Made by a program: the position numbers and the translations under genes. DNA of 64,000 bases, taken from assembly GCF_027923405.1 (NCBI RefSeq), contig NZ_BQYI01000001.1:2396501-2460500 (forward strand), read 5' to 3'. This document shows positions 5,189 to 14,821 of this stretch, one piece after another (the stretch's first letter is position 1; each line of letters starts with the position of its first letter). Below the pieces are notes generated by a model. That model did not search any database, was not told the origin of the DNA, and saw only the letters and a program-made list of their open reading frames with translations. The DNA is from Paenibacillus sp. YYML68. Lineage in GTDB: Bacteria; Bacillota; Bacilli; Paenibacillales; NBRC-103111.

Positions 5189-6061
5189 ATGTGGAGAAAG
5201 ACACGAATATTTCTCGAAATGATTAAGATCGAGCATACATTGTTCGCCCTGCCGTTCGCGTTCATGGGGGCGCTGCTCGGATCAGTTGTAAAGTTCAACC
5301 AGCTGCCGTCGTGGGCGCAGATCGGCTGGATCCTGCTCGCGATGGTCGGGGCGAGGAGCGCGGCGATGGGTATTAATCGGGTTGCAGACAAAGTATTCGA
5401 CGCGAAGAACCCGAGAACGTCAATGCGCGCCATACCCGCTGGACTCATATCATCCAAAGAAGCAATCATCTTTATTATCGTTTCGTTCGTTCTGCTCTTT
5501 GTTGCAGCGGCGCAGTTGAATCCGCTATGTATGAAGCTGATGCCGATCGCTGTATTCTTTCTCGTCTTCTATTCGTATACGAAGCGCTTCACGTGGCTGT
5601 GCCATCTGTTCCTCGGAATGGCGATTGCCCTTGCGCCGCTCGGCGGATGGGTAGCGGTTACCGGCGAGATCACGCTTGCTTCCATCGTGTTCTACATCGC
5701 AATCATGTTCTGGCTTGCTGGCTTCGACGTCATCTATGCGTGCCAGGATGCGGAATTCGATCGGAACGAAGGGCTTCATTCGATTCCGGCCCGCTTCGGT
5801 ATTCCGACTGCGTTGAAGCTGGCGCGAGCGTTCCATGTGGTGACTGCAATCGGCTTGCTCAGTCTTTATTTTATGACCGATCTGGCATGGGTGTATTTGC
5901 TCGGAGTCATCGTTTCGTTCGGCTTGCTGTTCTATGAGCACCTCATTGTGAAGCCGAACGACCTTACACGTGTAAATACGGCGTTCTTTACGATGAACAG
6001 CACGCTAAGCATGGTGATGTTCGCCGTCACCTTCATCGATCTGGTGGTGTATCGCGTATGA
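5189..6061 (+). CDS. mqnP: UbiA-family prenyltransferase of menaquinone synthesis (MqnP-like)
   Basis: This is an integral membrane prenyltransferase that would attach the polyprenyl chain to an aromatic quinone precursor. It has 290 residues and about eight membrane segments. The first Asp-rich motif appears as NRVADKVFDAKNPRT (about residues 63-77) and the second region as YACQDAEFDRNEG. Its place beside menG, ubiX and mqnA points to the late futalosine pathway, where MqnP prenylates dihydroxynaphthoate-type acids. MenA of the classical route is less likely, since the motifs resemble 4-hydroxybenzoate prenyltransferases. It overlaps ubiX by 4 bases (ATGA). Confidence 0.85.
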   Translation: MWRKTRIFLEMIKIEHTLFALPFAFMGALLGSVVKFNQLPSWAQIGWILLAMVGARSAAMGINRVADKVFDAKNPRTSMRAIPAGLISSKEAIIFIIVSFVLLFVAAAQLNPLCMKLMPIAVFFLVFYSYTKRFTWLCHLFLGMAIALAPLGGWVAVTGEITLASIVFYIAIMFWLAGFDVIYACQDAEFDRNEGLHSIPARFGIPTALKLARAFHVVTAIGLLSLYFMTDLAWVYLLGVIVSFGLLFYEHLIVKPNDLTRVNTAFFTMNSTLSMVMFAVTFIDLVVYRV

Positions 6062-6696
6062 CAGCTACGAAGCCTTGGGTGATCGGAATAACGGGAGCGA
6101 GTGGCGCTGCCTACGGCGTCCGCTTGTGCCGGTTTTTGCTATCGGAGGGAGAGAGTGTTCATCTGATCGTGACGGATGCCGGCTGGCGCGTGTTCAAGGA
6201 GGAGCTCGGCTGGGATTCCGCGAAGCGGGTCGATACGTTGAAGCAGCAATTCAGCGGCCTTCCGGGCTCACTCGAGTATGTGAACAACCAAGACATTGGA
6301 GCGAAGACAGCGAGCGGCTCGTTCTTGACGAAGGGAATGATCGTTATTCCTTGCTCAATGGGGACGCTGTCCGGCATTGCGAACGGCGCTTCGGATAATC
6401 TTCTCGAGCGTACAGCGGATGTTATGCTGAAGGAAGGTCGCAAGCTTATTCTCGTGCCTAGAGAGACGCCGCTTCATGCGATTCATCTGGAAAATATGCT
6501 GAAGCTCGCTCGAATGGGTGTTCGCATCATACCGGCGATGCCGGCTTTTTATCAAGGTCCGCAAACGATAGACGATATGGTCGACTTCATGGTGGGCAAA
6601 GTGCTCGATGCCATGGAGCTTGAGCATCAATTGTACAAAAGATGGGGTATGCCACATGACAACGAGCATCAGGCCCATTCGGATCGGACGAATTGA
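6058..6696 (+). CDS. ubiX: Flavin prenyltransferase UbiX
   Basis: UbiX prenylates FMN to make the prenyl-FMN cofactor of UbiD-type decarboxylases. The 212-residue protein starts with the flavodoxin-like VIGITGASGAAYGVRL. It carries IPCSMGTLSGIANGASDNLLERTADVMLKEGRKLILVPRETP, whose signature ends with the conserved RETP. It overlaps the prenyltransferase gene by ATGA and mqnA by 41 bases, so translation is coupled. In the futalosine pathway the decarboxylase MqnL needs prenyl-FMN. No mqnL is in this window. Confidence 0.93.
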   Translation: MTATKPWVIGITGASGAAYGVRLCRFLLSEGESVHLIVTDAGWRVFKEELGWDSAKRVDTLKQQFSGLPGSLEYVNNQDIGAKTASGSFLTKGMIVIPCSMGTLSGIANGASDNLLERTADVMLKEGRKLILVPRETPLHAIHLENMLKLARMGVRIIPAMPAFYQGPQTIDDMVDFMVGKVLDAMELEHQLYKRWGMPHDNEHQAHSDRTN

Positions 6697-7519
6697 TTTC
6701 ACGAACGTTTGGCCGTTGTTTTACTATTTCCCCTTTGCTGCATTTGGCTCCCAGGTAGAGGTGCTGCAGCAGGTTCCGACGGGACTGAACCGGGCAATGG
6801 CGGCTGGCCAGATCGACATCGGTCCAATCTCGTCTTATGCATACGGCGAGAACGTGTCTGAGTATATGCTGTTCCCTGATATATCAGTTAGCGCTTACGG
6901 GGCGGTGCATTCCATCTTGCTGTTTCATCGTAAACCGCTGGAAGCACTAGGAGGCGCTACGATTGCCTTACCGACAACGAGCGCAACCTCGGTCAATTTA
7001 TTGAAGATTATTTTGGCTAAATTTTATCGTGTGCAGCCTGAATACGTCTACGAGACTCCGAACCTGGACACGATGATGACGAAGGCTGACGCCGCGCTAC
7101 TGATCGGCGATCACGCTATCCGGGCCAACTGGGAAGATCGCGGCTACATGATCACCGATCTTGGCGCGGAATGGAACAAGTGGACGGGCCACTGGATGTC
7201 GTTCGCGGTGTGTGCCATCCGCAAGGCTGTGATCGAGGAGCAGCCGGAGCTGATCAAGCGTATTTATGACGGCTTTATCGAGAGCAAGCGTAAGTCCTTG
7301 ACCGACATGACGTTGCTGATCGAGGACGCGCAGGTGGAGCTTGGAGGCGAAGCGGCCTATTGGCAAAGCTATTTTTCCAAGCTCAGCTATGATTTCGGAC
7401 CACAGCAGTGGGCAGGCTTGAAGCAATATTTCGAATACGCAGCGGAGCTCGACTTCCTGAAGCATGAGGTGCCGCTGCACATATGGAACGATAATTCAGT
7501 AGCACAGGTGACGGAATGA
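6656..7519 (+). CDS. mqnA: Chorismate dehydratase, futalosine menaquinone pathway
   Basis: MqnA dehydrates chorismate to 3-enolpyruvyl benzoate, the first committed step of the futalosine route. The likely 287-residue protein starts MTTSIRPIRIGRIDFTNVWP, close to the family signature. Also present are VPTGLNRAMAAGQIDIGPISS and the conserved ALLIGDHAIRANW. It is a periplasmic-binding-protein fold enzyme in the cytosol. The ATG at 6656 is preferred over upstream in-frame 6608, which adds 16 residues not expected in MqnA. It overlaps the end of ubiX and overlaps hepT by four bases. Chorismate comes from aroB and aroC downstream. Confidence 0.92.
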   Translation: MTTSIRPIRIGRIDFTNVWPLFYYFPFAAFGSQVEVLQQVPTGLNRAMAAGQIDIGPISSYAYGENVSEYMLFPDISVSAYGAVHSILLFHRKPLEALGGATIALPTTSATSVNLLKIILAKFYRVQPEYVYETPNLDTMMTKADAALLIGDHAIRANWEDRGYMITDLGAEWNKWTGHWMSFAVCAIRKAVIEEQPELIKRIYDGFIESKRKSLTDMTLLIEDAQVELGGEAAYWQSYFSKLSYDFGPQQWAGLKQYFEYAAELDFLKHEVPLHIWNDNSVAQVTE

Positions 7520-12898: not shown

Positions 12899-12928
12899 TT
12901 GACAATTCCATCCTTGAGGTAGTATAGT
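12899..12928 (+). promoter_or_regulatory. SigA promoter of the trp operon
   Basis: A perfect TTGACA at 12899-12904 and TATAGT at 12923-12928 are 18 bases apart. Transcription would start near 12934, so the 5' stem-loop lies at the very start of the RNA. Confidence 0.75.
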
Positions 12929-12933
12929 AAGGG

Positions 12934-13282
12934 CAAACGAACCGTCGGTAGACGGCGGTTGTTTGAGCATTACAGTAGAGACGAGCATAGTTCAGCAGAG
13001 CCTAGACGAGCATAGTAGCCAGCATAGCAAGGTACCGATCAGTCTACAGATGACCAAGTATCCATCACAATTGTTGCCCTCTCTTGTTCGGAGTATGAAC
13101 GTTGAAGGCATTTGAAGATGCTTGTTCGAGCTGATGTCTGTCGATTATTTTTCATGCTGCCCTCATTCCTTATTCTGCTGATTATCGCCTCTACGTACGC
13201 GTAGAGGCTTTTGCGCGTATATACGGCTTCAAGCTTGCCACATAATTAAGAGACGTACGAGACGAGTAGAGGAGAGATGAAG
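12934..13282 (+). promoter_or_regulatory. TRAP-regulated trp leader (attenuator)
   Basis: The leader begins with a bulged stem-loop (12934-12965, CAAAC and AACCG paired with CGGTT and GTTTG), like the 5' stem-loop of Bacillus subtilis trp. Then come NAG triplets starting at 12973, 12978, 12983, 12988, 12993, 12998, 13003, 13008, 13013, 13020 and 13025: eleven, nine of them in a strict 5-base period. A terminator lies at 13187-13212. GTAGAG at 12975-12980 inside the triplet array can pair with CTCTAC at 13189-13194 and so act as an antiterminator. Tryptophan-TRAP binding would free the terminator. Confidence 0.88.
13187..13212 (+). terminator. trp attenuator terminator
   Basis: A perfect 9-bp stem (13187-13195 with 13200-13208), four-base loop and TTTT lie 71 bases before the trpE start. 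It is the terminator arm of the leader switch. Confidence 0.85.
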
Positions 13283-14821
13283 ATGTACACACCGGAAGCG
13301 TTGGAAGTTATCCGACTGGCCAAGGACTATAATTTAATCCCGGTCGTACGCACGCTGATGGCCGACACCGAGACGCCGATTCGCGTGTTTCAATACTTTT
13401 ATGAGGACAACAACTCGTTCCTGCTCGAAAGTGTAGAGGGCGGCGACAAGTGGGCCCGCTATTCGTTCATCGGCACTGATCCGTTCATGAAGATTCGTTC
13501 GAAGAATGGGGTCACTATGATCGATGGCAAGGATGGTCAGGTTGCCGTTGAGGAGAAGCCGCTTGAGGTGCTGAAGGCGCAGCTTCGTTCCTACCGCAGT
13601 CCGAACTTGCCGGGCTTGCCGCGGTTCACAGGAGGCGCCGTAGGCTTCTTCGGATACGATCTGCTGCAATATTATGAGAAGCTGCCTGCTCATCGCAAGG
13701 ATGACCTTGAGATGAATGACATCGAGTTCATGTTCTGTGATCAGGTCATCGTCTTCGATCATGTGAAGCAGCAGCTGAAGCTGATCGCGAACGTGCATGT
13801 GCCGGCAGGCGGCACCGATGCGGACATCGTAGCTGCATACGAAACAACGTGTGCCAAGATCGATGCGACGATCGAGCGTCTGCGCCGTCCAATGCCGAAT
13901 ATGGCGACGCCTCACCGTCCGCTTCCGGACGATGTAGATATGGGCGAGATTAAGTCAAATTTGACGAAGGAGCAGTTCCTCGACAACGTTGTGAAGGCGA
14001 AGGAGTATATTCGCGCCGGAGATATTTTCCAAGTCGTATTGTCCCAGCGCTTCGAGATCGAGACGGATGTGTCGCCGATGCAGGTGTATCGTATTCTGCG
14101 GGCCATGAATCCATCTCCGTACATGTACGTGCTCAAGATGGATAACGAGGTCATCGTCGGTACGTCGCCTGAAATCTTAGTGCGCGTAGAGGACGAGAAG
14201 GTCGAGACGCGTCCGATTGCCGGTACAAGACCGCGTGGACGGACGCCCGAGCAGGACGCTGCGCTTGAGGTGGAGCTGCTTGCCGACGAGAAGGAGCGCG
14301 CAGAGCATCTGATGCTCGTCGACCTTGGTCGTAACGATATTGGCCGCGTATCCGAGTTCGGTACAGTCAAGTGTGACTCATACATGCAGATCGAACGCTA
14401 CTCGCACGTCATGCACATTGTGTCGAACGTATCCGGTAAGCTGGCGAAGGATAAAGACTTCTACGATGCGTTCATCTCCTGCATGCCGGCGGGTACGGTC
14501 TCCGGCGCTCCGAAGCTCCGCGCCATGGAAATTATTGCTGAGCTGGAGAACGAGGCGCGTGGCGCGTACGCTGGTGCGATCGGCTATCTCGGCTTCTCGG
14601 GGAACCTTGATACGTGCATTACGATTCGTACCATCATATTCAAGAATGGCAAAGCTTATGTACAAGCAGGCGCAGGCATTGTGTGGGACTCTGTTCCGGA
14701 GAGCGAGTACCAAGAGACGGTCAACAAGGCGATGGGCATGCTGAAGTCGATTCGCGTCGCAGAGGCTGTATTCACCCAGACTCCACGCGAGCAGGCAGTC
14801 ATTAATCACGACTATGCTTAA
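13283..14821 (+). CDS. trpE: Anthranilate synthase component I
   Basis: TrpE makes anthranilate from chorismate and glutamine-derived ammonia. The protein is about 512 residues, with FLLESVEGGDKWARYSFIG early (feedback-site region), and the catalytic stretches RPIAGTRPRGRT, HLMLVDLGRNDIGRV and AGTVSGAPKLRAMEII. ATG 13283 lies at a better distance from the GAGGAGAG SD than the in-frame ATG 13277, which touches it. No glutaminase subunit gene is in the cluster, so a shared PabA elsewhere is expected, as in Bacillus. Confidence 0.96.
   Translation: MYTPEALEVIRLAKDYNLIPVVRTLMADTETPIRVFQYFYEDNNSFLLESVEGGDKWARYSFIGTDPFMKIRSKNGVTMIDGKDGQVAVEEKPLEVLKAQLRSYRSPNLPGLPRFTGGAVGFFGYDLLQYYEKLPAHRKDDLEMNDIEFMFCDQVIVFDHVKQQLKLIANVHVPAGGTDADIVAAYETTCAKIDATIERLRRPMPNMATPHRPLPDDVDMGEIKSNLTKEQFLDNVVKAKEYIRAGDIFQVVLSQRFEIETDVSPMQVYRILRAMNPSPYMYVLKMDNEVIVGTSPEILVRVEDEKVETRPIAGTRPRGRTPEQDAALEVELLADEKERAEHLMLVDLGRNDIGRVSEFGTVKCDSYMQIERYSHVMHIVSNVSGKLAKDKDFYDAFISCMPAGTVSGAPKLRAMEIIAELENEARGAYAGAIGYLGFSGNLDTCITIRTIIFKNGKAYVQAGAGIVWDSVPESEYQETVNKAMGMLKSIRVAEAVFTQTPREQAVINHDYA

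Follow-up and report, generated by a model that had tools for sequence, protein, structure and literature searches.

Organization of the locus and sampling of relatives

The window, as we call the whole stretch of 64,000 nucleotides from Paenibacillus sp. YYML68 analysed here, encodes both trpE, preceded by a leader with a (G/U)AG triplet array and a terminator hairpin, and mtrB, the gene of the TRAP subunit (Table 1). TRAP attenuation, a textbook example of a switch, is best known from Bacillus subtilis, where trpE translation is controlled by a structure that sequesters the Shine-Dalgarno (SD) sequence. Residues 12-80 of the TRAP encoded here align to solved MtrB chains, and TRAP is encoded in 58 of the 60 genomes searched, the source genome included. 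Near mtrB, Pfam analysis reports genes of the heptaprenyl diphosphate synthase subunit 1, UbiA, flavoprotein, VitK2_biosynth and polyprenyl synthetase families, together with cheR and aroH, while other neighbours are, as we take it from their translations, aro genes and ndk. The UbiA-, flavoprotein- and VitK2_biosynth-family genes sit at positions 5189-7516 of the window between two heptaprenyl synthase subunits, and this gene set may point to a futalosine-type menaquinone route. A search for anti-TRAP returned no match in the source genome, which differs in this from B. subtilis; among the 60 genomes a sole match lies over the cut-off (G008:C36:122524-122667), and two more are weak.

Upstream of the leader, a promoter-like pair of hexamers matches 11 of 12 consensus positions, where shuffled sequences average 0.9 such sites. 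Given this pair, the transcript start would fall near 12935, at the 5' stem-loop. As for the start of trpE, ATG 13283 (MYTPEALEV) is more likely than 13277, which abuts the SD. Rfam returned 0 matches at gathering score in the window. The original prediction, made from the window sequence alone, was that of a three-state switch in which one pyrimidine arm, CCTCTAC (13188-13194), could pair with GTAGAG in the array (12975-12980), with the terminator 3' arm (13201-13207) or with GTAGAGG at the trpE SD (13266-13272), and all four segments were found at these positions. GTAGAG has 24 matches in the whole window (both strands) versus 22.8 in shuffles, which is the chance level, and the three plus-strand copies within 300 nt therefore constitute a local cluster.

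Table 1. Genes and sequence features discussed in the text, in window coordinates
Feature	Position	Strand	Basis
mtrB, TRAP subunit, 81 aa	2595..2840	+	PF02081, 138.2 bits (cut-off 21.3)
Promoter-like TTGACA-18-TATAGT (TTGACA at 12899, TATAGT at 12923-12928)	12899..12928	+	Consensus scan, 11/12
5' stem-loop just before the array	12934..12965	+	z -3.4 versus mononucleotide shuffles in the window
Predicted antiterminator 5' strand, overlapping the array	12974..13011	+	Duplex prediction with 13161-13195; spacer-permutation test
(G/U)AG triplet array, likely TRAP site	12976..13027	+	Triplet list (CAG at 12993 and 13020); arrays also in relatives
Insert between array and anti-array	13028..13160	+	TTNTTT motif at 13145; fold versus shuffles
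Anti-array, the predicted antiterminator 3' strand, ending in the terminator 5' arm	13161..13195	+	Duplex prediction; relatives
Terminator hairpin GCCTCTACG-TACG-CGTAGAGGC, then TTTT	13187..13212	+	-16.1 kcal/mol; arm variants covary
Phased GAG mini-array over the trpE SD, GAG-AC-GAG-TA-GAG-GA-GAG	13259..13276	+	Triplet pattern; conservation
trpE, 512 aa from the likely start	13283..14821	+	PF00425 and PF04715

Relatives were found with aroH as the anchor, which gave 153 fetched loci with an aroH match in addition to the window. Once 33 loci without a downstream trpE match, 7 gaps of more than 700 nt and 8 identical duplicates had been dropped, 106 distinct aroH-trpE gaps remained, window included. 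A CTCYRC terminator pattern was matched in 100 of these 106 leaders, and the analysis was carried out on those 100, without the other 6. A subset of 32 leaders represents two genera, g1 with 25 and g11 with 7, the genus counts being inflated by the relatedness of the leaders. For comparison with other orders of the class, whose genomes we guess to be Bacillales, 40 regions were chosen by hand out of 76 genomes with an aroH match; trpE lies beside aroH in 28 of the 40, and 25 yielded an array-terminator distance. In equilibrium folds, "pairing" is the sum of pair probabilities divided by the nominal number of pairs, and its values can exceed 1.

Triplet array, predicted antiterminator and terminator

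The roughly 11 (G/U)AG repeats with 2-3 nt spacers that were looked for upstream of trpE are present as nine (G/U)AG and two CAG triplets, eight of the eleven perfectly phased and three irregular. From 12978 on, seven (G/U)AG and one CAG follow each other in perfect 5-nt phase (12978-13015), and the out-of-phase triplets come thereafter (TAG 13016, CAG 13020 and TAG 13025). In the two genera, the 5' array contains 7-10 (G/U)AG triplets in 18 of 32 leaders, with a range of 5-15, by a soft count. The trp leaders of Cohnella (L014-L017) have six or seven strict GAG triplets; passages of PMC4027176 give seven repeats as the minimum for stable TRAP binding. A 5' stem-loop before the array, known from the B. 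subtilis leader, is strong in the window but does not look general, with a z-score at or below -1.5 in 9 of the 32 leaders (median +0.49).

A terminator hairpin with a U-tract does lie between the array and trpE, though the U-tract is short, with T at only 4 of the 8 bases that follow the stem, where the median is 7. The sequence downstream of the stem is TTTTGCGC, and a consensus terminator scan that needs five T in eight misses this terminator. Pairing of the arm with 13201-13207 is borne out by the relatives, in which the arm variants covary: all 84 leaders with CTCTAC have GT as its counterpart, and 14 of the 15 with CTCTGC have GC. This agreement does not arise by construction, since the search pattern fixed both arms but left the covarying base free (T or C). 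The array and the terminator are 160 nt apart in the window, with a median of 128 nt (range 49-368) over the 100 leaders and of 23 nt (range 1-62) over the 25 leaders from other orders. That this distance is longer than in B. subtilis had been predicted and is correct, going by passages of PMC4027176 that place the 11th repeat of the B. subtilis trp leader at +87 to +91, the antiterminator at +60 to +111 and the terminator at +108 to +133, a distance of about 16 nt. The two systems also differ in how much of the terminator 5' arm belongs to the antiterminator, the whole arm here and 4 bases in B. subtilis.

The array pairs with about 35 nt that end in the terminator 5' arm, in an imperfect helix (12974-13011/13161-13195) with a predicted energy of -25.8 kcal/mol. 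The competition proposed between the array and the terminator is supported in silico, but the antiterminator is not just the 6 bp first envisaged, GTAGAG being the outer end of a longer helix. The array is a purine-rich repeat and the arm is pyrimidine-rich, so that some complementarity is automatic, and the null model therefore kept the triplets and permuted only the spacers; it took the place of column-by-column covariation, given that the register in which periodic arrays align is arbitrary. The real spacer order scores at or below 0.05 in 33 of 100 leaders (median z -0.98) and, with one hand-picked leader per genus, in 9 of 31 genera (binomial 1.4e-5). Exact GTAGAG is found in 73 of the 84 arrays of CTCTAC leaders, versus a mean of 59 and a maximum of 71 in 500 spacer permutations, and is lacking in the other 11. 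The arrays of the 15 CTCTGC leaders have no excess of GCAGAG (7 versus a permuted mean of 6.9), and the signal is weaker when the 31 nt upstream of the arm, the anti-array, are shuffled instead (22 of 100 leaders, 6 of 31 genera). The array spacers look tuned for antiterminator pairing, and the fold prediction and the spacer-permutation null both point to an antiterminator that would share bases with the array and with the terminator.

Folding with and without the array masked, as had been suggested, flips the predicted structure of the window: the arm pairs with the array at 0.86 in the free RNA (0.97 in L085), and masking the array raises terminator pairing from 0.01 to 0.82. Together with the presence of the TRAP gene, this in silico behaviour is consistent with the idea that TRAP on the array would free the arm for the terminator. 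The window and L085 are exceptions among full-length equilibrium folds, however: with the array free, terminator pairing exceeds 0.5 in 27 of 32 leaders, and arm-array pairing averages 0.10. Since the terminator wins at equilibrium in most leaders, the antiterminator there must win by timing, forming first during transcription. When the RNA is cut at the arm, the arm pairs with the array at more than 0.5 in 57 of 100 leaders, but in 8 of the 25 g1 leaders, and the expected number of array/anti-array pairs is 8 or more in 92 of 100, a count made without a shuffle control.

Folding of the inserts between array and anti-array is modestly more favourable than that of dinucleotide shuffles (median z -1.70 over 94 leaders, median -1.01 in g1, -0.74 in the window). 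TTNTTT occurs in the insert of 71 of 100 leaders, that is, in 23 of 25 from g1 (100 shuffles gave a mean of 13.4 and a maximum of 18) and in 48 of 75 outside g1 (null mean 28.6, maximum 37). Passages of PMC12288461 describe TTNTTT as the NusG pause motif, necessary yet not sufficient, and attribute to NusG-dependent pauses in the B. subtilis trp leader the effect of giving TRAP time. A pause of the polymerase at the insert TTNTTT is plausible on the strength of this motif. In several insert folds, TTNTTT sits in a hairpin loop.

Phased GAG triplets over the trpE ribosome site

The trpE SD overlaps four phased GAG triplets. At least three phased triplets are found at the SD in 24 of 25 g1 leaders versus 0 of 25 aroH sites. 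The two genera supply 26 distinct sites, of which 25 keep the GAG at -13 to -11; the next triplet upstream is kept at 0.69, 0.81 and 0.92 per column, the spacer columns -15, -14 and -10 vary, and -9 and the SD core are invariant. Four triplets are present in two leaders outside the two genera, L136 and L145. Within 400 kb of the source genome, 5 of 264 script-predicted genes have at least three phased triplets and 2 have at least four, and in the genome as a whole the 4-triplet pattern has 8 matches versus 23 for the reversed pattern, hence no genome-wide enrichment. The pattern KAGNNKAGNNKAGGAGAG occurs at 35 places in 25 whole g1 genomes. Judged by their position relative to aroH, 17 of the 35 are trpE sites, each in a different genome, and the 18 elsewhere are on a par with the reversed-pattern control (23). 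The effective number is smaller, since ten of the g1 genomes have near-identical leaders (L063-L071 and L074). Only the placement of the pattern at trpE is notable, not the pattern as such.

The triplets may be no more than a strong, purine-rich ribosome site that one lineage has inherited, without any TRAP role and with trpE translation not separately regulated, a reading that we regard as a serious possibility, if somewhat short of an even chance. GAGGAGAG alone is a good SD, four phased triplets are also reached by two of the 264 predicted genes, and 10 of the 25 g1 leaders are near copies; the four triplets moreover lie below the number stated for stable TRAP binding. This reading accounts less well for a GAG that lies outside the SD core and is nevertheless kept in 25 of 26 sites while the adjoining -15, -14 and -10 vary, and for the 17 of 35 genome-wide places that fall at trpE.

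It is also possible that TRAP contacts the GAG mini-array in the readthrough RNA. The 9-11 triplets, at least one of them over the site, that passages of PMC4347634 associate with direct TRAP block of a ribosome-binding site are not found at 13259-13276, which has four. The same review states that one repeat over the site suffices to block ribosomes once TRAP is bound. With four triplets, the mini-array falls short of the seven stated for stable binding and would need help from the 5' array. One form that such help could take is a split TRAP site, in which a single ring would bind the 5' array and, with the pockets left free, grip the four GAG triplets on the trpE ribosome site about 230 nt downstream; we deem it unlikely. 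If true, the readthrough leader would be looped and trpE translation blocked directly, replacing the local SD hairpin of other orders. The 5' and SD triplets do not settle at a sum of 11, the sums running from 9 to 19 with soft counting.

A local SD-sequestering hairpin of the B. subtilis type was rejected for the two genera, in which the SD is unpaired below 0.3 in 2 of 32 leaders. The same threshold is passed by 18 of 67 other leaders of the set versus 21 of 28 in other orders, and the median z of the SD hairpin is -1.60 in other orders, +0.95 in the two genera and +0.20 in the rest of the set. Also unlikely, in our view, is a long-distance version of the B. subtilis logic, whereby the anti-array freed by TRAP would pair with the SD triplets, which mimic the array. 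Such pairs lower the unpaired fraction of the window SD from 0.60 to 0.30 when the array is masked, and L006 and L082 pass the shuffle test. These two are, however, the only ones of 32 leaders to pass at 0.05, the mean energy of -11.4 is surpassed by the -14.0 of the aroH SD control, and mean SD exposure barely moves on masking (0.445 to 0.415), and anti-array-SD pairing was rejected as a general mechanism on these grounds. In these leaders, neither the local SD hairpin nor the anti-array strand is supported as a control of trpE translation.

The least credible reading, to which we give very little weight, is the third state of the original prediction, in which the freed arm of a readthrough RNA would pair with GTAGAGG at 13266-13272 and hide the trpE SD: the window does hold an exact 7-bp complement, an arm-SD duplex of 12 bp with a bulge is possible at -14.3 kcal/mol, and array-masked pairing reaches 0.60 in L007, 0.53 in L010 and 0.37 in L096. 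In the window, however, this pairing is 0.002 in the free RNA and no more than 0.038 once the array is masked, the average over 32 leaders is 0.05, and the local terminator hairpin wins (-15.9). Within the 30 nt that precede the assumed trpE start, 8 of 100 leaders carry six bases exactly complementary to the arm (7 of the 25 in g1, 1 of the 7 in g11, none of the 68 elsewhere). The covariation expected of all three partners holds for the terminator arms, and the array spacers look tuned, but it fails for the SD copy: the arm is CTCTAC in 32 of 32 two-genera leaders, yet the SD position opposite its A holds A in 21 of them, T in 9 and C in 2, with no compensation. The aroH SD pairs equally well with the same arms (median -7.7 kcal/mol versus -7.9 for the trpE SD in g1), and arm-SD pairing as a general mechanism was rejected by the fold, complement, covariation and aroH control data.

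Proposed mechanism and relation to known systems

The leader is very likely a TRAP attenuator, and what is left of the three-state idea are two states with in silico support, antiterminator and terminator, together with a lineage-specific GAG mini-array on the trpE ribosome site; the arm-SD state fails. The segments themselves, the TRAP gene, the array pairing above the spacer null and the conservation of the SD triplets in two genera are direct observations. On this basis, we consider it probable that the leader is a tryptophan-sensing TRAP attenuator with a stretched, array-encoded antiterminator and an SD mini-array that TRAP possibly touches. From here on, TRAP binding, termination, the role of timing and any translation control are what we infer. 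At low tryptophan, TRAP would be empty, and the transcribed array (12976-13027) would pair with the anti-array (13161-13195) as the latter emerges; this helix would take up the terminator 5' arm, and RNA polymerase would continue into trpE and the genes behind it. At high tryptophan, TRAP would wrap the array and leave the anti-array free, CCTCTAC would pair with GTAGAGG at 13201-13207, and transcription would stop. The insert of 130-160 nt may delay or pause the polymerase and so give TRAP time to bind. The third GTAGAGG is part of the SD mini-array rather than a partner of the arm, and TRAP may touch that mini-array in the readthrough RNA.

With the B. subtilis trpEDCFBA leader, this leader shares the TRAP gene, a (G/U)AG array with mostly 2-nt spacers, and an antiterminator that overlaps the array and competes with a terminator upstream of trpE. 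Unlike the B. subtilis leader, that of the window is devoid of a local SD hairpin and carries phased GAG triplets on the SD. Du and Babitzke reportedly described, in 1998, a long-distance refolding that controls trpE translation in B. subtilis; the likeness is that one leader sets both termination and SD access, and the difference is that no supported SD-pairing strand was found here. That one B. subtilis leader governs termination and trpE translation is already known, according to passages of PMC12288461. Ribosome sites of B. subtilis that TRAP represses by direct blocking also have (G/U)AG triplets over the SD in the account given by parts of PMC4347634, whose reference titles name trpG and trpP among them; the window differs from these in that it has only four triplets, in the same RNA as the main array. 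B. subtilis-type attenuators are characterized in passages of PMC3913778 as weak intrinsic terminators on which TRAP acts beyond refolding. Among the open-access matches listed, taken by their titles and abstract starts and with subscription journals outside the scope, none was a paper on a Paenibacillus trp leader; PMC3184956 and PMC7773762 mention Paenibacillus and TRAP or mtrB.

If the stretched attenuator is correct, it would represent a second architecture, in which the terminator arm is written into an antiterminator, 49-368 nt from the array, with a U-tract usually longer than that of the window. Its comparison with B. subtilis would help to separate the shared core, an array and a competing terminator, from lineage detail such as distance, SD hairpin and 5' stem-loop, and would offer a natural test of whether TRAP can act over a long distance and on a second, partial site.

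Phased triplets were also sought at other genes. In the 25 g1 genomes, no more than two phased triplets lie in the 70 nt ahead of the pabA/trpG-like gene, the starts of which were set by motif and are doubtful in three cases; TRAP control of this gene was rejected on that count, unlike that of the TRAP-repressed trpG of B. subtilis. Five phased triplets cover the SD of a presumably methyltransferase-like gene, so named from its translation (L158, G000:C1:1895515-1895537), and five phased (G/U)AG triplets lie upstream of a predicted gene on the minus strand of L278 (G000:C1:3600001-3620000, offset 4859). Four phased triplets, possibly by chance, lie over the SD in L164 (G000:C1:3379780-3379797, minus strand), the gene of which we take, from its translation, to be shikimate dehydrogenase-like.
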